From positions 1 through 48,790 of the forward strand of contig LVBE01000029.1 of NCBI GenBank assembly GCA_001603105.1: a stretch of 48,790 nucleotides of DNA, read 5' to 3'. The stretch is from Spirochaetales bacterium Spiro_03 (GTDB lineage: Bacteria; Spirochaetota; Spirochaetia; Sphaerochaetales; Sphaerochaetaceae). Shown here piece after piece: positions 4,136-13,419 of the stretch. The translations under genes were made by a program, and so were the position numbers. Numbering within the stretch: position 1 is the first letter of the stretch; each line of letters starts with the position of its first letter. Below the pieces are notes generated by a model. It saw nothing but the letters and a program-made list of their open reading frames with translations, did not search any database and was not told the origin of the DNA.

Positions 4136-4202
4136 GCGCCAAAGTATACTGTAGCGCGCCGCTTGCTTGCAACAGAGGGGAGGCTGCCACTATGATGGGC
4201 CC

Positions 4203-5174
4203 ATGATAGATGCTGCCCGATACCGTAGTGCCATGATGAGAAAGATCCGATCATTCTTCGATGGACGCTCCTACCTCGAGGTCGATACCCCGATCCTCAG
4301 CCCCACCCTGATCCCTGAGTCAACGATCGAGAACTTCGCCACGCGCTTTGAGAATCCGTTCTTGCCGTCAGTGGAGCTCTTTTTGGTCCCCTCCCCCGAA
4401 GTCTACATGAAGCGCCTCATCGCCGATGGCTGGGGGAGCATCTATCAGATCAGCCACTGCTTTCGTAACAGCGAGCAGATCGGACCATACCACAACCCTG
4501 AGTTCACCATGTTGGAGTACTACACCATAGAGGCGGATGAACAAGACTCTATCGCCATCACCGAAGAGCTCTTCCACGCCCTCGCCGATGGTGAGACTGC
4601 CGACCACCTGCGCCCCCCATTCAACCGCCTCACCGTCGAGGAGGCCACATGGCAGCTGTGTGGCGTCGACCTCGAGCACCATCAGCGGCAGAGCTCCTTG
4701 GCCGCTGAAGCGCGGCGCCTCGGCCTCACGGTCCCCAATGAGCCAGAGAGTTGGGAAGAGACCTTCAACCGGATCTTCCTCACCTTCGTCGAGCCCCACT
4801 TGCCCCAAGAAAAACCTCTGGTACTGGACCGGTATCCTGCCCAGATCGAGTGCCTGGCCTTCCAGGAGGGACCATGGCGCCAGCGCTGGGAGCTCTACGG
4901 AGGCGGAATCGAGCTGGCAAACTGCTACAATGAGGAGCGACGGCTATCCAAGATCGAGCAGTACTACAGCGATGAGTACGCCCGATTGGTTACAAAGCGA
5001 ACAGACAGCGGCATGCCCATAGCCGACATCGACCCCGATTTTGCCCAGACCCTTGCTGCGATGCCACGCGTCAGCGGCGTCGCCATGGGCCTCGACCGCC
5101 TGCAGATGCTGTTGATGAATCGCAAGAGCCTGGGCGAGGTACTGCTCTTCCCTCTCTCTAGCACACTGGAGTAA
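4203..5174 (+). CDS. epmA: EF-P lysine ligase EpmA (GenX/PoxA/YjeA), LysRS paralogue without anticodon-binding domain
   Basis: Class II aaRS core of about 323 aa with no OB-fold: FDGRSYLEVDTPILSP, FRNSEQIGPYHNPEFTMLEYY, GVAMGLDRLQML. It is immediately upstream of efp. Confidence 0.9.
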   Translation: MIDAARYRSAMMRKIRSFFDGRSYLEVDTPILSPTLIPESTIENFATRFENPFLPSVELFLVPSPEVYMKRLIADGWGSIYQISHCFRNSEQIGPYHNPEFTMLEYYTIEADEQDSIAITEELFHALADGETADHLRPPFNRLTVEEATWQLCGVDLEHHQRQSSLAAEARRLGLTVPNEPESWEETFNRIFLTFVEPHLPQEKPLVLDRYPAQIECLAFQEGPWRQRWELYGGGIELANCYNEERRLSKIEQYYSDEYARLVTKRTDSGMPIADIDPDFAQTLAAMPRVSGVAMGLDRLQMLLMNRKSLGEVLLFPLSSTLE

Positions 5175-5294
5175 TCTCTTGTCCTACCATTGATAAGATA
5201 TTTTCTTTTACATGGGGGGATGATTCTTTTTCCAATCTCTGCTACGATGCTAGGGCGTAATTCGTGCATTTTGAAACCATACGAGGTAATGTAT

Positions 5295-5858
5295 ATGATT
5301 AAAGCTGGTCAAATTGAGAAGGGAACCGCCTTGCTGATCAAGGGACAGCCCTTCATTGTTGTAGACCGAGAGTTTGTGAACCCCGGCAAGGGATCGGCCT
5401 TTGTCAGGCTTAAGCTGAAGAGCCCGGCTACCGGCCAGGTCCTGCAGGAGACGATGAAGAGCCAGGACAACGCCGAGGACATCACCGTCGCTGACCGTGA
5501 CTGCCAGTATCTCTACAACGATGGGGAGAGTTTCCATCTCATGCTCACCGATACCTTCGAGCAAATCGAAGTGCCGATGGCGACGTTCCCTGACTACGAA
5601 TTCTTGATGAAGGATGGCGAGACCTATCGCTGCACCTTCTGGGAGTCCCAGTTGCTGGAGATCCAGATTCCTCCCAAGGTCGTCTACCTGATAGCCGAGG
5701 CAGAGGAGGCCGTCAAGGGCGATACGGTGCAGGGAGCCACCAAGTACGTGACCACAGAGACCGGCCTGAAGGTCCGTGTCCCGATCTTCATCAAACAAGG
5801 TGAGAAGATCCGCGTGAACACCGAGACACGGGAGTACATCGAACGGGTCAACAACTGA
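5295..5858 (+). CDS. efp: Elongation factor P
   Basis: MIKAGQIEKGTALLIKGQPFIVVDREFVNPGKGSAFVRLKLKS..., C-terminal GEKIRVNTETREYIERV. Start chosen at ATG 5295, 8 nt after a GAGG; the ORF track extends further upstream. Confidence 0.95.
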   Translation: MIKAGQIEKGTALLIKGQPFIVVDREFVNPGKGSAFVRLKLKSPATGQVLQETMKSQDNAEDITVADRDCQYLYNDGESFHLMLTDTFEQIEVPMATFPDYEFLMKDGETYRCTFWESQLLEIQIPPKVVYLIAEAEEAVKGDTVQGATKYVTTETGLKVRVPIFIKQGEKIRVNTETREYIERVNN

Positions 5859-5875
5859 GCCTAAAGTGGTCTGGC

Positions 5876-5907
5876 AAAAGCCCTCCTGGACGATGGAGGG
5901 CTTTTTT
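5876..5907 (+). terminator. Rho-independent terminator after efp
   Basis: AAAAGCCCTCC-tggacgat-GGAGGGCTTTTTT: GC-rich hairpin followed by a T run, 17 nt after the efp stop. Confidence 0.9.
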
Positions 5908-5956
5908 GATGAAATATTCGCAATTGGCCTTGCAAAGATTCGACTGATTCGATATG

Positions 5957-5974
5957 TTAATCATCGTTCACTTA
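5957..5974. promoter_or_regulatory. Candidate degenerate second TetR operator upstream of the regulator gene
   Basis: TTAATCATCGTTCACTTA matches 13 of 18 positions of the palindrome at 6607-6624, and lies just upstream of the TetR gene. Confidence 0.4.
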
Positions 5975-5990: not shown

Positions 5991-6572
5991 GTGTATACCC
6001 CACGCCAGCTAGAGTTGATCGATGCTGCCATCACGCTCACCAGCAGACAAGGAATACAGCGGCTTACGATCCGCAATGTCGCCAATCACATTGGTATCAG
6101 CGAGGCGGCTGTCTATCGCCACTTCGAAAGTAAATACCACCTCCTGTTGGCTGTACTGTCCCATCTTGATGGACTGCTCTCTCCCCTCTTTGACGAACTG
6201 GCTAACACCGAACAACAACCCGCTGCTGCCGTATCATCATTCCTTGATACCCTCTGCTCTCTCATCGAAGCAAACAAAGCCTTTACCTTGATGGTCTTTG
6301 CAGAGGAGACGTTCAATGTTGAACCACTACTCAAAAGCGAGCTACTCGCACTGCTGCAATCCAACATCTCCCGCCTCGCCGAGTTCTTTGCAAAAGCCCA
6401 GAACGCTGGAACATGCCGCTCCGACATCCCCGCTGATCAATTGGCGCTCGTCACCTTTGGCGCCATTCGCCTATCGGTCTCACGCTGGCACCTCAATGGA
6501 ATCGAACACCCACTGAGCACTGAGGCCCACCGCTTGCACCACACATTCACGACAATGTTCTCACTGACCTAA
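5991..6572 (+). CDS. TetR/AcrR family transcriptional regulator
   Basis: N-terminal HTH: LIDAAITLTSRQGIQRLTIRNVANHIGISEAAVYRHFESKYHLL. GTG start preceded by GGGAGGA. Confidence 0.93.
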   Translation: MYTPRQLELIDAAITLTSRQGIQRLTIRNVANHIGISEAAVYRHFESKYHLLLAVLSHLDGLLSPLFDELANTEQQPAAAVSSFLDTLCSLIEANKAFTLMVFAEETFNVEPLLKSELLALLQSNISRLAEFFAKAQNAGTCRSDIPADQLALVTFGAIRLSVSRWHLNGIEHPLSTEAHRLHHTFTTMFSLT

Positions 6573-6606
6573 GAGATCACGGCCACAATGGTCTGTGCTC
6601 ATAAAG

Positions 6607-6624
6607 TTAGTAAACGTTAACTAA
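6607..6624. promoter_or_regulatory. Candidate TetR operator
   Basis: TTAGTAAACGTTAACTAA, with 16 of 18 positions symmetric, in the 62-nt gap between the TetR gene and the RND gene. Confidence 0.7.
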
Positions 6625-6634
6625 TGGAGGATTC

Positions 6635-8947
6635 ATGAAGTTTTTCAACTCGCTTTCAAAACGCCCTTTTCTTTTGATCGTCGCCCTATTGCTCCTCGCC
6701 CTCTTGTTTGTCACCTCGATGGCAAAGACGGCCACCTTGGAGACGAACCTCAATGAATATATGCCGAAGACCCATCCTGCATTCGTCTTCAGCACCGAAG
6801 CTGAAGAGCTCTTTGGTATCGGTGACTCAATCCTCATCGTCCTAGAGGATCCAGCAGGAATATACAACGCATCGACGATCACGAAACTCGACCAGATGAC
6901 CCAGTCTTTGCTCACCGACTTTCCCGACATAGATGACGTCACCTCCCTCGTTGTCGCTGACAACATAACCAGCATGGACGGCATGCTCGAAGTTGAGCCG
7001 TTTTACACGGGCGCAACTGACGAGCAAGCTCTTGCAAAGCTCAAGGAGCAGGTAGAGGCAAACCCGATGATGCGAGGACGGATTGTCAGTGGCGATGGCA
7101 CTGCAACGCTCCTGATCGTCGAACCATCACCCCAAGCCAACACCAAAGAGCTTCAAAAACAGCTACAGCAGTGGCTTGAGACGTGGCAGGGACCACAAAC
7201 TCTTCGCATCGCCGGCCGCCCCGTCATCGAGGGGTCACTGGCCGAACTCGGTCCAAAGGACATGGCCATCATGTTCCCCCTGGTCGTCGTCACCATGATC
7301 ATCCTCCTTTACGTGCTGCTACGCTCGGTGCGTGACATGGTCCTCAACATGATCATCGTCTTGTTCGGAACCTTGACGGCCTTTGGAACCATGACGCTGT
7401 TCAACATCCCCATCTACGCAGTTGACACTATGATTCCGGTCATGCTGATAGCCATTGGAGTCGCCTATGGCATCCACATGCACAATGCGATCCACCACCA
7501 TATGCTCAGCGACCCCTCCATCACCAAGGAGGAGCTAGCACGCAAGGCATTGGTCCAGATGGTTCGTCCGATCATCATGACAGCATTGACAACAGCCATT
7601 GGCTTTGTCTCGTTGATGAGCAGCGAAGTGTTGCCGGTCCGCTACTTTGGTCTGTTCAGCGCAGTAGGAGTCATGACAGAGATGCTCTTGGCCCTCCTAC
7701 TCTTCCCTGCAACCATCTATCTGCTGGGAAAACCCACGTACCGCTCCAAGATCGCAGCCAATGAAACCCCGCCTTTGGCGCAAAAGCTCCACACCTTTAC
7801 CAGCAATCACCCCACTGCCATCGTCATTGTTGCATTCGCTGTCCTCGCCATCGGGATCTGGGGAACCAGCCGCGTGTGGATCGACACGAGTTTTCTGGCA
7901 AACTTTGAAGAGGACAGCGCCATCGTTCAAACCGACTTGTTCGTCAACGAGAAGTTCGGCGGCTCCTCAACCTTGAACATCATCCTCAAAAGCGATGAAG
8001 CCGACCGATTCAAAGACCCGCTTCTCCTCTCGCGTATCGACGAGCTGCAGGGTGCGCTACAGAACGATCCGGTGGTAGGAAATACCCTTTCTTTGGCGAC
8101 CTTCATCAAACAAATGAACCAAGCGATGGAGGAGTACGCACCTGGGACGTATGCAATTCCCGATTCATCGGACCTGATCAGCCAATACCTCCTGCTCTAT
8201 GAGTTCAGCGGTGACCCAAAGACCCTTGAGCAAGTCATCGATTATGAGTATTCGACCGCAAACATCACCGTCCAGCTGAAGAGCGATAGCTCTGCCCAAT
8301 TGAAGAGTGTCCTAGAGATCGTACAGACATTCGGCGCTGATTTTGCTGAGAGCGGTGTCACCGTCGGCTTTGCTGGGTCCGGATACAAAGCCTACGTCTT
8401 CAGTGAGCTCTTGCTCAAAGGCCAGATCATCAGCTTGCTGCTCTCATTCATCATCATCTTCCTCCTGCTCACCCTTTTATTCAAAAACTGGCGGGTTGGT
8501 CTGGCAGGAACCGTACCGATTGCCATTACCGCGGTGGTGAACTTCGCTGTCATGGGAATCTTGAACATCCCTCTCAGTTCAGCCACCGCCCTCATCAGCT
8601 CGATCGCCGTAGGAATCGGCGTCGATTATGCCATTCACTTCATTGAGCACTACACCAATGAGCGCCTGAAGGCAAAGTCTCAGACCGAGGCGACATTGGA
8701 GACGATGGGCAACACCGGCCGAGCAATTCTCTTCAATGCGGTGGCGGTGATGGGCGGATTCGTCATCCTGCTCTTCAGCGTATTTCCCCCAAACCGACAG
8801 GTCGGAGCCCTGATCGTCGTAAATATGGCAGTGAGCGCACTAGGCACACTGACCATCCTCGTGGTCTTGATCCACGCACTTGAGGCACGAGGTCGCTTTC
8901 TTCCCAAACAATCAGCACAACACAATAAACTAGGAGTACATGCATGA
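6635..8947 (+). CDS. RND-family exporter of the MMPL/HpnN type
   Basis: 770 aa with duplicated 6-TM halves; MMPL-type repeats DTMIPVMLIAIGVAYGIHMHNAIHHH and SSIAVGIGVDYAIHFIEHY. Confidence 0.92.
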   Translation: MKFFNSLSKRPFLLIVALLLLALLFVTSMAKTATLETNLNEYMPKTHPAFVFSTEAEELFGIGDSILIVLEDPAGIYNASTITKLDQMTQSLLTDFPDIDDVTSLVVADNITSMDGMLEVEPFYTGATDEQALAKLKEQVEANPMMRGRIVSGDGTATLLIVEPSPQANTKELQKQLQQWLETWQGPQTLRIAGRPVIEGSLAELGPKDMAIMFPLVVVTMIILLYVLLRSVRDMVLNMIIVLFGTLTAFGTMTLFNIPIYAVDTMIPVMLIAIGVAYGIHMHNAIHHHMLSDPSITKEELARKALVQMVRPIIMTALTTAIGFVSLMSSEVLPVRYFGLFSAVGVMTEMLLALLLFPATIYLLGKPTYRSKIAANETPPLAQKLHTFTSNHPTAIVIVAFAVLAIGIWGTSRVWIDTSFLANFEEDSAIVQTDLFVNEKFGGSSTLNIILKSDEADRFKDPLLLSRIDELQGALQNDPVVGNTLSLATFIKQMNQAMEEYAPGTYAIPDSSDLISQYLLLYEFSGDPKTLEQVIDYEYSTANITVQLKSDSSAQLKSVLEIVQTFGADFAESGVTVGFAGSGYKAYVFSELLLKGQIISLLLSFIIIFLLLTLLFKNWRVGLAGTVPIAITAVVNFAVMGILNIPLSSATALISSIAVGIGVDYAIHFIEHYTNERLKAKSQTEATLETMGNTGRAILFNAVAVMGGFVILLFSVFPPNRQVGALIVVNMAVSALGTLTILVVLIHALEARGRFLPKQSAQHNKLGVHA

Positions 8948-9729
8948 ACAAACACTTTCGGATCACCTTGATGATGCTCTTGTTGCTCATCAGCTCACTT
9001 GGACTATTCGCCAATCCTACATCGGATGGAGAGGCGGTGATGTGGAACGTCTACAACCGCGATAGCGGCAACGCGATGAGCTCAACGTTGACAATGACCT
9101 TGACCAGCGCAAAGGGTGCACAGCGGGTACGCAGCATCGCCCAATATCGCTTGGACAGCGACGGCATCGAGCGCAAAATGATGTTCTTTCTCACCCCCAA
9201 TGATGTGAAGAACACCAGTTTTCTCTCCATCAGCTACGAGGATGGCAGAGGCGATGATCAATTCATCTACCTGCCTGCCCTCAAGCGTGTCAAGAGAATC
9301 GCCAAGGACAATACCAACGAGGCCTTCATGGGATCGGACTTCACCTATGATGACATGGGAACCCGTCACCCCCAGCTGGACACCCACACCCTGCTGGGCA
9401 AAGAGACACTGGCCGGCACACCGGTCGTGGTCGTCCAAAGTGAGTCAAAGACTCCCAGCGAGTATCCGAAGACGATCTCCTGGATTGTCGATGGCCAATG
9501 GTACGGGCTTAAGAAGGAGTTCTATGCCAAGGACGGGACATTGGCCAAGACCCTGGTGATCGACGAGGTCAATCTCATCGATGGCATCTACGTCATTGGG
9601 GATATGACGATGACCAACCACCAGAAGAGAACCTCCACCCGGATCCAGATGGAGAGCGTTGATTTCGCCGTCGATCTTGATGAGCGGTTCTTCAGTGAGC
9701 GACAAATGCAGATTGGACCGAGGAGGTAA
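8944..9729 (+). CDS. Outer membrane lipoprotein-sorting protein family (LolA-like fold), exported
   Basis: Signal peptide; family hallmark FMGSDFTYDDMGTRHPQLDTHTLLGKETLAGTPVVVV; ATGA overlap with the RND gene. Confidence 0.85.
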   Translation: MNKHFRITLMMLLLLISSLGLFANPTSDGEAVMWNVYNRDSGNAMSSTLTMTLTSAKGAQRVRSIAQYRLDSDGIERKMMFFLTPNDVKNTSFLSISYEDGRGDDQFIYLPALKRVKRIAKDNTNEAFMGSDFTYDDMGTRHPQLDTHTLLGKETLAGTPVVVVQSESKTPSEYPKTISWIVDGQWYGLKKEFYAKDGTLAKTLVIDEVNLIDGIYVIGDMTMTNHQKRTSTRIQMESVDFAVDLDERFFSERQMQIGPRR

Positions 9730-9732
9730 GAG

Positions 9733-10968
9733 ATGAAGAAAATCGCAATCATCATGGCGCTGAGCCTCGTACTATTGCCGCTTTTGGCAAACTCCGGTGA
9801 ACTCGATGGAATGGTACGTACCAAGGTCGCCTATCGGTTTGACCAGCAGGATCTGCCCATCCAGGAGCAGTTGGTAGACCTCCTCTATACCCACTACAAC
9901 AGCCTTGGGTCACTCTCGGTGCATCCTACGGTTACCATCACACCGAACAAGGGCGCGGAGATCGACCTCAAGGAGGTGTATGTTGATCTGCACTTCGACC
10001 GAGCCGATCTGCGCATAGGCAAGCAAACGATTATTTGGGGAGAAGCCGAAGGAGCCTTCATCACCGACCTGGTCTCACCGAGGGACATGCGATCCTTCAT
10101 CCTTGCAGATTTTACCGAGATCAGAAAGGCGGTGCCGGCTCTGAAGGCCAATCTCTACCTTGGCGATTACACCCTCGAGGGCATTTGGGTCACTCACCAT
10201 GTTCCTTCAACCCTGCCTTCAAAGGATTCACTGTGGGCCCGTAAGCCAAGTATTTCCTTTGCAGCCCCACCCACCATCAACGAGGCAGAGAACATTGGCA
10301 CAGATCTGAAGAACGGTGAGCTTTTCCTCTCTCTTGGAAAGTGGGGTGGCTCGCTGAACTGGACACTCAATGCAGGGACTGCCTATAGCGATGAGCCGGT
10401 GATCACCCGCTTTACGCCAGGGGCGTCTTTCACCATCGACCAAGGCTTTGAGCGCTACTCGTTTGCCGGAGGGAGCATGAGCACCCTCATCGGCTCGGCG
10501 GTGCTGAGGATGGAAGCGGCTGCAGCCTTCAACAAGCCGATGAACAAGATCAATCCAACCCCTCCTCTCCCCTCCATCGCCCTTGAGCGGCATACCCAAG
10601 TGCAGAGCCTGGTAGGATTGGATTGGTCGATGCTAGGGTCACAGTGGTCAGCGCAGTACATCTTCACCTATACGCACGACCATCATGATCAGCTATACAG
10701 CCAGATGCAGATCGTCGACCAGTTCGACCATATGTTCACCCTGCGCTATCAGGACACCTTCTTCGATGAGCGCCTTACGGCAAAAGTCTTCACGTACGTG
10801 GAACTCTCACCGCTGAATGCACTAGTCCGTCCCTCACTCTCCTACTCACTTGCCGACGGACTTCTTGTCGAAGGAGGACTGGAACTCTTTATCGGTGATC
10901 GGCTTGGTACGTTTGGTGCGTATCGCGATAACACCATGGCTTGGGCGGCTCTTCGTTGGTTCTTCTGA
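9733..10968 (+). CDS. Outer membrane beta-barrel protein (DUF1302-like)
   Basis: Signal peptide MKKIAIIMALSLVLLPLLANSG; ELDGMVRTKVAYRF...KEVYVDLHFDRADLRIGKQTIIWGEAEGAFITDLVSPRD pattern; alternating beta strands; C-terminal WAALRWFF. Confidence 0.75.
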   Translation: MKKIAIIMALSLVLLPLLANSGELDGMVRTKVAYRFDQQDLPIQEQLVDLLYTHYNSLGSLSVHPTVTITPNKGAEIDLKEVYVDLHFDRADLRIGKQTIIWGEAEGAFITDLVSPRDMRSFILADFTEIRKAVPALKANLYLGDYTLEGIWVTHHVPSTLPSKDSLWARKPSISFAAPPTINEAENIGTDLKNGELFLSLGKWGGSLNWTLNAGTAYSDEPVITRFTPGASFTIDQGFERYSFAGGSMSTLIGSAVLRMEAAAAFNKPMNKINPTPPLPSIALERHTQVQSLVGLDWSMLGSQWSAQYIFTYTHDHHDQLYSQMQIVDQFDHMFTLRYQDTFFDERLTAKVFTYVELSPLNALVRPSLSYSLADGLLVEGGLELFIGDRLGTFGAYRDNTMAWAALRWFF

Positions 10969-10988
10969 CGGTGCGAGAGATATTTGTA

Positions 10989-11023
10989 TTGAGAGGAGCC
11001 CTTGCGGACTCCTCTCAATTTTT
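10989..11023 (+). terminator. Rho-independent terminator of the RND operon
   Basis: TTGAGAGGAG-cccttgcgga-CTCCTCTCAA followed by a T run; 10-bp stem. Confidence 0.9.
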
Positions 11024-11039
11024 GTCACTGAGTGTGTTC

Positions 11040-12674
11040 TTAGCCAACCAACAAAGCCAGGTCATCCTCCACACTTGTGATACCGGCGATGCCGAACTTG
11101 TCTACCAGAACATTTGCCACGTTCGGGGAGAGGAAGGCAGGTAGCGTCGGACCGAGGTGGATGTTCTTCACTCCCAGATAGAGCAGTGCCAATAGCACAA
11201 TGACCGCCTTCTGCTCATACCAGGCAATGTTGTAGGCAATCGGCAGATCGTTGATATCATCGAGGCCGAAGATCTCCTTCAGCTTCAGGGCGATGAGAGC
11301 CAGCGAGTAGCTGTCATTGCACTGTCCGGCGTCAAGGACGCGGGGAATGCCTCCGATATCGCCGAGGTCAAGCTTGATGTACTTGTACTTGGCGCAACCT
11401 GCGGTAAGGATCACGGTATCCTTGGGCAGAGCCTTGGCGAACTCGGTGTAGTAGTCGCGGCTCTTTGATCGGCCATCACAGCCGCCCATAACAACGAACT
11501 TGCGGATCGCCCCACTCTTGACCGCATCGACGACGGTATCGGCAAGGGCGAAGACCTGGTTGTGGGCAAAGCCGCCGACAATCTCTCCACTCTCGATCTG
11601 TGTCGGGGCAGCGCATGTCTTGGCCAGGGCGATGATCTGGCTGAAATCTTTCTCTTCGCCGATGCCACCTTCGATGTGCGCACACCCAGGATAGCCGGTG
11701 GCTCCGGTGGTGAAGAGTCGGTCCTTGTATGAGGCGGCGGGAGGCACGATGCAGTTGGTGGTCATCAGGATCGGACCATTGAAGGATTCGAACTCCTTCT
11801 TCTGCATCCACCAGGCGTTGCCGTAGTTGCCGTAAAAGTGGTCGTACTTCTTGAACGCAGGGTAGTAGTGCGCCGGCAACATCTCTGAGTGGGTGTAGAT
11901 ATCCACCCCACTGCCCACTGTCTGCTCCAGTAGCATTTCAAGGTCGCGCAGGTCATGGCCACTGACCAAGATACCGGGGTTTTTGCCTACCCCGAGCTTG
12001 ACACGGGTCATCTCAGGATTGCCGTAGGCAGCGGTATTCGCCCCGTCGAGCAACGCCATACCTGCCACACCCCACTTGCCGGTCTCAAGGGTGAGGGCGA
12101 CGAGCTCATCGACGCTCTTATCCTCGAGCAGGGCGCTCAGAGCGCTCTGGATGAAGGCATCGAGCTCGTCGTTGTCCTTGATCAGGTTGTTGGCGTGCTT
12201 TGAGTAGGCAGCGACGCCCTTGAGGCCGTACGTGATCAGTTCCTTGAGGCTGCGCACATCCTCGTTAGTCTCGCTCAGCACACCGACGCTCTTGGAGAGC
12301 TGCTCATAGGAGGAGACATCGGTGTTATTGAAGAGAGCGGCTTCGGACAAGGCCTTGGTATCGCCGAGCTTCTTCAATAGCGCCTCCTTGGCGGCGATGG
12401 TCAATCTGATCCGATCAATGACCTTCTGATCATCGAAGTTTGCGTTGGTGATGGTCTGAAAGAGGTTGCAGGTCACGATATGGTTGACATCGCTGTCCAC
12501 ACGCTTGCCCTCGGCCCTGAGGCAGGTGGTGACCTGGCTCAGGCCCTTGGTCACCCAAATCAAAAGATCCATCAGATTCGAGGTCTCAGGTTGTTTTCCA
12601 CATACACCGACCTTGGTGCAGCCAAAGTTACGCGCTGTTTCCTGACACTGGAAACAGAACATTGAGTTGTCCAT
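11040..12674 (-). CDS. hcp: Hybrid cluster protein / hydroxylamine reductase
   Basis: [34 protein letters not shown] (Cx2Cx8Cx5C cluster motif), [30 protein letters not shown]. Start set at ATG 12674 with AGAGGAG upstream. Confidence 0.95.
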
Positions 12675-12769
12675 GCAAAGCTCCTCTGTAGTTGTATTCA
12701 CATCAAACCGGCTCATTGCTCCGGTGTGTCTTCGTATGACTACCCTACCATGAGCCGGACTTGGAGATA

Positions 12770-12785
12770 TGTTGGATTTCCAACA
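12770..12785. promoter_or_regulatory. Palindromic operator, CRP/FNR-like half-site geometry, between hcp and mntP
   Basis: TGTTGGA-TT-TCCAACA: perfect 7-bp arms, also readable as GTTGG-N4-CCAAC, in the divergent intergenic region. Confidence 0.5.
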
Positions 12786-12858
12786 AAGTCTTCGGTATAC
12801 TTGTCACCTGTCCAACGAGTGCGTATACTCAGCCCATATCACACGGATAAGGATTGTC

Positions 12859-13419
12859 GTGACTACTGTTGAACTTTTCATCATCGCCTGTGGTTTATCG
12901 ATGGACGCCTTTGCAGTCTCGCTGTGCAAGGGCTTGAGGATGCGCTCCCATTATCTGGCCAATGGCCTGATCATAGCCCTCACCTTCGCACTCTTTCAGG
13001 CCCTCATGCCAATCATCGGCTGGACGATAGGGTCGCAGTTCAAAACCCTCGTCTGCACCGTAGCACAGTGGGTCGCCTTCCTCATCCTTGTCTCAGTGGG
13101 CATCAAGATGCTCTACGACAGCCTCCTATCCCCCCAAGCGTGTGAGACAAAGCCGCTGAACCGCATCCAGTGGCGCGCTCTCATAGCCCTGGGCATCGCC
13201 ACCAGCCTCGATGCCCTAGCTGTCGGGTTCTCCTTCAGCATGCTGGAGGTACAGATCCTGTCAGCCAGCCTCCTGATCGCAGTGGTGACCTTCTCCTTCA
13301 GCCTGCTGGCACTCGCGATTGGCAATCGCTGGGGCATCAGGTTACAGAAGAAGGCCGGCATGGCAGGAGGAGGGATCCTCATGCTCATCGCCGTGAAGAT
13401 CCTCGTTACCAGCTTCTAG
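12859..13419 (+). CDS. mntP: Manganese efflux pump MntP
   Basis: TTVELFIIACGLSMDAFAVSLCKGL and ATSLDALAVGFSFSML, typical of the MntP/DUF204 repeats. GTG start at 12859 after AAGGA; the longer ORF start is not favoured. Confidence 0.9.
   Translation: MTTVELFIIACGLSMDAFAVSLCKGLRMRSHYLANGLIIALTFALFQALMPIIGWTIGSQFKTLVCTVAQWVAFLILVSVGIKMLYDSLLSPQACETKPLNRIQWRALIALGIATSLDALAVGFSFSMLEVQILSASLLIAVVTFSFSLLALAIGNRWGIRLQKKAGMAGGGILMLIAVKILVTSF

Follow-up and report, generated by a model that had tools for sequence, protein, structure and literature searches.

It is still poorly understood how hydrophobic molecules traverse the aqueous periplasm when no tunnel spans it, and a TetR-controlled locus of Spirochaetales bacterium Spiro_03 (Sphaerochaetaceae) may offer a compact, self-regulated and carrier-based answer. 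We analyzed this locus within the 48,790 nucleotides of contig LVBE01000029.1 (the whole stretch, hereafter the window), which belongs to a 2.34-Mb, 92.8% complete assembly of 238 contigs whose closest named relatives are Sphaerochaeta. Four adjoining genes, all on the + strand and with a hairpin terminator on each side, encode in order a TetR regulator, an MMPL/RND transporter, a LolA-like protein and a DUF1302 barrel. In light of the data below, we propose that the operon, under repression by TetR, probably encodes an exporter that is driven by protons and moves a lipid or a hydrophobic small molecule, with a soluble carrier in place of the adaptor/TolC tunnel. The features that this reading draws on are the following.

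5876..5907, + strand: predicted intrinsic terminator of the upstream EF-P gene; fold of 5870-5912 at -19.3 kcal/mol (z -3.7), then T6
5930..5958, + strand: putative tetR promoter, TTGCAA, 17 nt, TATGTT, 8/12 to consensus, proposed from the sequence and its relatives
5957..5974, + strand: predicted operator copy 1, TTAATCATCGTTCACTTA, a conserved site overlapping the putative tetR -10
5991..6572, + strand: TetR-family repressor, 193 aa, GTG start; PF00440 1.6e-13, 50.6 bits against a cut-off of 24
6607..6624, + strand: predicted operator copy 2, TTAGTAAACGTTAACTAA, 16/18 positions palindromic, just 5' of the RND ribosome-binding site
6635..8947, + strand: MMPL/RND transporter, 770 aa; PF03176 3.6e-39, 135 bits against 20.5, in two stretches
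8944..9729, + strand: secreted LolA-like carrier, 261 aa, signal peptide; PF17131 3.9e-56, 190 against 30 bits
9733..10968, + strand: DUF1302 outer-membrane β-barrel, 411 aa, signal peptide, C-terminal Phe; PF06980 2.5e-10, 40.4 against 23.2 bits
10989..11023, + strand: predicted intrinsic terminator at the operon 3' end, ahead of the convergent hcp gene; fold of 10984-11030 at -19.5 kcal/mol (z -4.7), T5

The original prediction of four contiguous genes between two terminators is confirmed at its coordinates: both hairpins, each with its T run, fold strongly, and folding thereby settled what a simple consensus promoter and terminator scan had missed, that scan having returned nothing above chance. 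The first of these predicted terminators insulates the operon from the EF-P gene upstream. The RND and LolA-like genes overlap by an ATGA at 8944-8947 and only 3 nt separate the LolA-like stop from the barrel gene start, both as claimed; the gene overlap and short gaps speak against independent transcription of the LolA-like and barrel genes. As to the description of the locus as a four-gene operon, the gene set stands but a single unit is the less likely reading, as the 62 nt from tetR to the RND gene carry an operator copy of their own. Because operator copies precede both tetR and the RND gene, the better reading is a tetR gene plus a separately operated RND-LolA-barrel unit. Just upstream of the operon (window 4167-5858; genes named by eye) lie an EpmA/lysyl-tRNA-synthetase-like gene and then the EF-P gene, whose frame was called from a TTG start at 5190 that is probably too far upstream. 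On the 3' side (window 11040-13419, likewise named by eye) are an hcp-like gene of the hybrid cluster protein type and an MntP-like gene, and several Sphaerochaeta loci have the pair in the corresponding position (L014, L015, L016 and L018, the last from the cultivable S. halotolerans).

Regulation is the feature most directly readable from the DNA. The regulator combines a TetR_N helix-turn-helix with palindromic predicted operators at its own promoter, as the TetR family would have it, and by analogy with that family it presumably acts as a repressor released by a ligand. In the 20 loci examined that have an upstream tetR of the same type, the 18-bp palindrome is found at both places, 5' of tetR and 5' of the RND gene, in 20 of 20, with 12 to 16 of the 16 specified positions matched; the remainder of the tetR-RND gap diverges among these loci while the operator site is kept, and the putative tetR -35 is preserved as TTGNCA in many relatives. 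A pattern search across the 2.34-Mb genome, with one mismatch allowed, matched only at 5957-5974 and 6607-6624, and a reversed control pattern matched nowhere in the whole genome. Together, these putative operators are strong evidence that TetR regulates its own gene locally and that the RND unit is controlled independently of tetR read-through.

The transporter has 12 transmembrane helices and two periplasmic loops, each about 180 aa long and thus far shorter than those of AcrB. Asp664 in TM10 and His281 in TM4 are invariant across 50 pump homologues, consistent with a role of these residues in proton coupling. Its best NCBIfam match is the HAE3 model TIGR00921, yet the score stays below the cut-off (286.1 against 351.9 bits), and the HpnN models TIGR03480 and NF052374 fall far below theirs (99.7 against 751.85 and 53 against 1100 bits). 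The structural model (pLDDT 89.5) finds its closest folds in MmpL5 and MmpL4, followed by HpnN, NPC1/NCR1 and MmpL3, and the profile search agrees, so that MmpL4/MmpL5, by both profile and fold, are nearer solved pumps than HpnN, which the original prediction had cited as an example. NPC1, HpnN and MmpL3/4/5, the nearest folds, are movers of lipids or hydrophobes; HpnN and MmpL3/4/5 share with the window pump the 12-TM MMPL fold and export lipids or siderophores on the proton motive force, and their operons are not known to contain a LolA-like protein or barrel. It is also important to note that the operon encodes no membrane fusion protein and that no TolC-family (PF02321) match was found genome-wide in the 92.8% complete assembly, in keeping with the proposed self-contained route lacking a classical adaptor/TolC.

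What would stand in the place of the tunnel is the LolA-like protein. It carries no lipobox cysteine, with no cysteine near its N-terminus (judged by eye), and against the PDB it matches the LolA-superfamily structures 9tp6 (1.4e-39), 3bk5 (2.3e-29) and 4z48 (1e-15). Next to its far better PF17131 match there is a second, weaker one to DUF1329 (7.7e-9, 35.7 against 23.1 bits, profile positions 78-215 of 368), whereas the canonical LolA family PF03548 gives no match to the protein up to E 1. PF17131 and MMPL proteins also occur in archaea, whose envelope offers no such outer membrane as a destination, so the carrier may also serve other purposes. The last gene product is modelled with high confidence (pLDDT 92.1) as a closed barrel of about 18 strands, whose Foldseek matches are outer-membrane porins, OccK channels and AlgE; this fold assignment rests on the model, because a search of the barrel-family profile against PDB sequences gave no match. 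Its most conserved stretch comprises G96, Q98, W102, G103, A105, G107, D112, P116 and F122 and falls within a long loop that follows the fifth strand and is perhaps folded into the barrel.

The original prediction had named the lack of a conserved neighborhood as grounds for abandoning it, and the neighborhood proves to be conserved. A single scan with the LolA-like protein returned 80 loci spanning Spirochaetota, Bacteroidota, Cloacimonadota, Neomarinimicrobiota, deltaproteobacterial and other genomes, 58 of them with enough flank for neighbor counts. An RND gene and a DUF1302-type gene accompany the LolA-like gene in 56 of these 58 loci across several phyla, mostly ordered RND-LolA-DUF1302, and 26 of the well-flanked loci also have a TetR gene, as detected with a profile seeded from the window TetR. 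Gaps are at most 30 nt for LolA-barrel in 43/58 loci and for RND-LolA in 39/50, and a Pfam DUF1302 match is present in 49 of 53 barrel homologues. The RND-LolA-barrel grouping is far beyond chance. Pairwise distance matrices of pump, carrier and barrel correlate at 0.86-0.93 (0/2000 permutations), as expected of parts inherited together and with species descent contributing in part. A self-contained unit of pump, LolA-fold protein, outer-membrane protein and own regulator is thus conserved. Flanking genes, sought as a clue to cargo, are common only to near relatives and vary between phyla. Among the loci with metal- or methyltransferase-type genes beside the module, a theme limited to Bacteroidota-like loci, are L040, L045, L049, L051 and L056 as well as L062, L064, L066, L067 and L070, all of Bacteroidota type or related; the genes there encode a methyltransferase, a PEMT-like protein, an O-methyltransferase, CDF, ZIP, FeoB, hemerythrin, a TonB-receptor or an ABC transporter, hinting at a metal or methylated-ligand cargo at those loci.

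From these parts we infer a lipid or hydrophobic cargo, induction of the system, the direction of export, the energy source and the hand-over between components as follows. The TetR protein would bind the two conserved palindrome copies, shutting down its own gene as well as the RND-LolA-barrel unit, and would let go on meeting a ligand, probably the cargo itself or a similar hydrophobe. The pump, judging by its family, its fold and the TM10 Asp, would then use the proton gradient to move the hydrophobe from the inner membrane into its periplasmic porter domains, where the soluble LolA-fold protein, as its fold and the operon logic suggest, would take the cargo into a hydrophobic pocket and cross the periplasm, standing in for the adaptor and TolC tunnel of AcrAB-TolC. 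Finally, the DUF1302 barrel would accept the cargo and either release it or insert it into the outer membrane.

The closest characterized system is AmeABCD of Castellaniella defragrans, in which an HAE3 RND pump is encoded together with a DUF1302 barrel, AmeC and a DUF1329 protein that belongs to the LolA superfamily; deletion mutants tolerate monoterpenes less well and accumulate more Nile Red (PMC6394551). The two systems share the HAE3-type RND, the LolA-superfamily periplasmic protein and the DUF1302 outer-membrane protein, and the Ame system is inducible and thought to export apolar compounds, as we propose for the window operon. They differ in carrier, AmeB being a 451-aa DUF1329 protein and the window protein PF17131 first and DUF1329 second; in gene order, which is barrel, LolA-like, AmeC and pump in ame and RND-LolA-barrel in the window; and in the window's own TetR and double operator. 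Moreover, no AmeC (COG4447)-type fourth gene lies between the terminators, and the homologous loci have no extra periplasmic cluster in common. The window operon would work along the same lines but lacks the fourth protein and has a PF17131 carrier, and we therefore regard it as a variant and not as a member of AmeABCD. A second relative is found in Pseudomonas putida, where growth on Tween 20 is the phenotype common to PP_0765 (DUF1302), PP_0766 (DUF1329), PP_2018 and PP_2019 (RND), where co-folding predicts RND-DUF1329 and DUF1329-DUF1302 contacts, described as weak, and where the authors propose a novel transport system (PMC10866462). It resembles the window in its barrel, periplasmic protein and pump, and departs from it in its two separate loci, its fourth protein PP_2018 and its growth phenotype. 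The operon had been called the best candidate in the window for an under-described system, and its relatives are indeed poorly studied, literature searches on PF17131 and on HAE3 with LolA giving almost nothing beyond AmeABCD; it is not unprecedented, since RND, DUF1329 and DUF1302 already come together in AmeABCD (PMC6394551) and in P. putida (PMC10866462). What this analysis adds is the conserved double operator, the conservation across phyla, the RND-or-ABC rule described below and the links to AmeABCD, PP_0765/0766 and PG1178-1181.

These same relatives bear on the direction of transport. Cargo could instead move inward, or mislocalized lipids could be taken off the outer membrane, with the RND protein serving as a retrograde pump or loader in hydrophobe uptake or lipid homeostasis: that P. 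putida requires its own version of the set for growth on Tween 20 could mean uptake and counts against export, DUF1302/DUF1329 pairs occur in hydrocarbon-use clusters such as the Zoogloea phenol hydroxylase cluster (PMC7012976), and DUF1302 barrels resemble both the exporter AlgE and the OccK channels, through which substrates are taken up. Conversely, characterized MMPL/HpnN-type RND proteins are exporters and the higher dye accumulation after ameABCD deletion argues for export, and we regard the inward route as unlikely, though deserving of serious attention.

A different cargo for an exporter is suggested by Porphyromonas, where the PG1181-1178 operon (TetR-MMPL-LolA-hypothetical) is among the genes most strongly induced by haem/iron limitation (PMC10470040, PMC10434189) and PG1178-PG1181 are up in an hmuS mutant (PMC13227078). 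The P. gingivalis operon resembles the window in joining a TetR, an MMPL, a LolA-like and a further protein, and differs in its haem/iron-limitation induction, in two ABC transporter genes that follow it and in identities of only about 22% (RND) to 35% (LolA-like); the P. gulae counterpart (L079) was matched at all four genes, again followed by the two ABC transporter genes. As PDB 9tp6 is all but identical to the LolA-like protein of P. gulae, the structure of the P. gingivalis carrier is probably already solved. The module could accordingly be an iron- or haem-limitation system for the export or recycling of a tetrapyrrole or a hydrophobic ligand of metals, much as MmpL4/MmpL5 export siderophores, and the pump's closest folds are indeed siderophore exporters, with FeoB, ZIP, CDF, TonB-receptor, hemerythrin and methyltransferase genes near some Bacteroidota loci. 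Around the window operon, however, only hcp and mntP point to iron, both beyond a terminator; there are no ligand-making genes at the operon, and neighbors differ between phyla, which leaves this reading with a rather small chance. The window operon in turn offers a frame for PG1178-1181, which is among the most haem-regulated operons of Porphyromonas and still unexplained.

The shortness of the periplasmic loops relative to AcrB, the lack of a PF02321 match in the 92.8% complete source genome and a linkage kept across phyla also make it highly improbable that the genes stand side by side without acting together, or that the pump is a classical RND efflux protein borrowing an adaptor and TolC from elsewhere. 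The latter scheme has been published for Treponema pallidum, where TP0790 is modelled as the AcrB partner of MacA/TolC (PMC8407342). The present results bear on that AcrAB-TolC scheme, in that the genes of related spirochete pumps are accompanied by those for a LolA-like protein and a barrel. TP0789, adjacent to TP0790 by locus number, is an abundant predicted lipoprotein (PMC5015957).

We surveyed PF17131 in 31 genomes of the same family (Sphaerochaetaceae) and obtained 37 matches in 16 genomes. PF17131 genes lie directly downstream of an MMPL/RND gene in 21 of the 37 cases and of an FtsX/MacB-type ABC permease in 15, so that 36 stand behind one of two pump types, and the one remaining gene is at a contig edge; the other 15 genomes, near-complete ones included, have no PF17131. 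Lipoprotein sorting, with the carrier moving outer-membrane lipoproteins and RND power replacing LolCDE, is scarcely credible despite the family's database name ('outer membrane lipoprotein-sorting protein') and a source genome (92.8% complete) in which no PF03548 LolA was found, since a family missing from 15/31 genomes is unlikely to be an essential sorter and the carrier gene, besides its lack of a PF03548 match, shares an operator-controlled operon with a barrel gene of its own.

A partnership with an export engine, as we propose for the window, is supported by the same counts (21 RND and 15 FtsX ABC of 37), the carrier following its engine as LolA serves LolCDE (PMC8277102). In LolCDE-LolA and the MacB-like ABC plus PF17131 loci of the same genomes, as proposed for the window, an energized inner-membrane part hands cargo to a LolA-fold carrier, the engine being ABC and not RND; the Lol system further differs in its essential lipoprotein cargo, the window carrier lying outside the canonical LolA family and its partner gene being an RND. 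A review notes that the periplasmic domains of MacB/FtsX-type proteins and the porter domains of RND pumps have a PD fold in common, and that LolC recruits LolA through its periplasmic domain (PMC8277102); in a simple reading, the carrier would dock on a PD-type domain whichever engine bears it. PF17131 may then mark a general trans-periplasmic route, in which a constant shuttle is served by interchangeable RND or MacB/LolC-like ABC engines, each with a cognate outer-membrane protein, a generalization that we hold tentatively and at somewhat less than even chance. If true, this would be an extra envelope crossing beside TolC tunnels, Lpt/AsmA-like bridges and the lipoprotein-specific Lol pathway. 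The position of the carrier gene in this family, next after an RND gene or else after one for an FtsX-type ABC permease, is a testable rule.

The source genome itself contains three PF17131 sets: the window operon, a second RND set and an ABC-FtsX set. The second RND-LolA-barrel set (contig C76:16313-20735, L011 3314-7736) has no tetR and shares 25%, 30% and 19% identity with the window RND, LolA-like and barrel proteins, respectively. A frame at L011:2697-3275, considered as its TetR, looks spurious and was missed by the TetR profile; after the set comes a gene of LuxR type whose product is hydrophobic in its N-terminal region (L011 7737-8687). The ABC set (C76:26967-31824, L011 13968-18825) encodes an ABC ATPase, two FtsX permeases, of which one, when scanned, has a MacB_PCD domain, a LolA-like protein and, as last gene, a possible outer-membrane protein with no Pfam match, and is the ABC-powered counterpart of the window operon. 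Among the homologous loci, L054, L057 and L068 have TetR-RND-RND-LolA-DUF1302 operons, whose two tandem RND genes possibly encode a heterodimeric pump.
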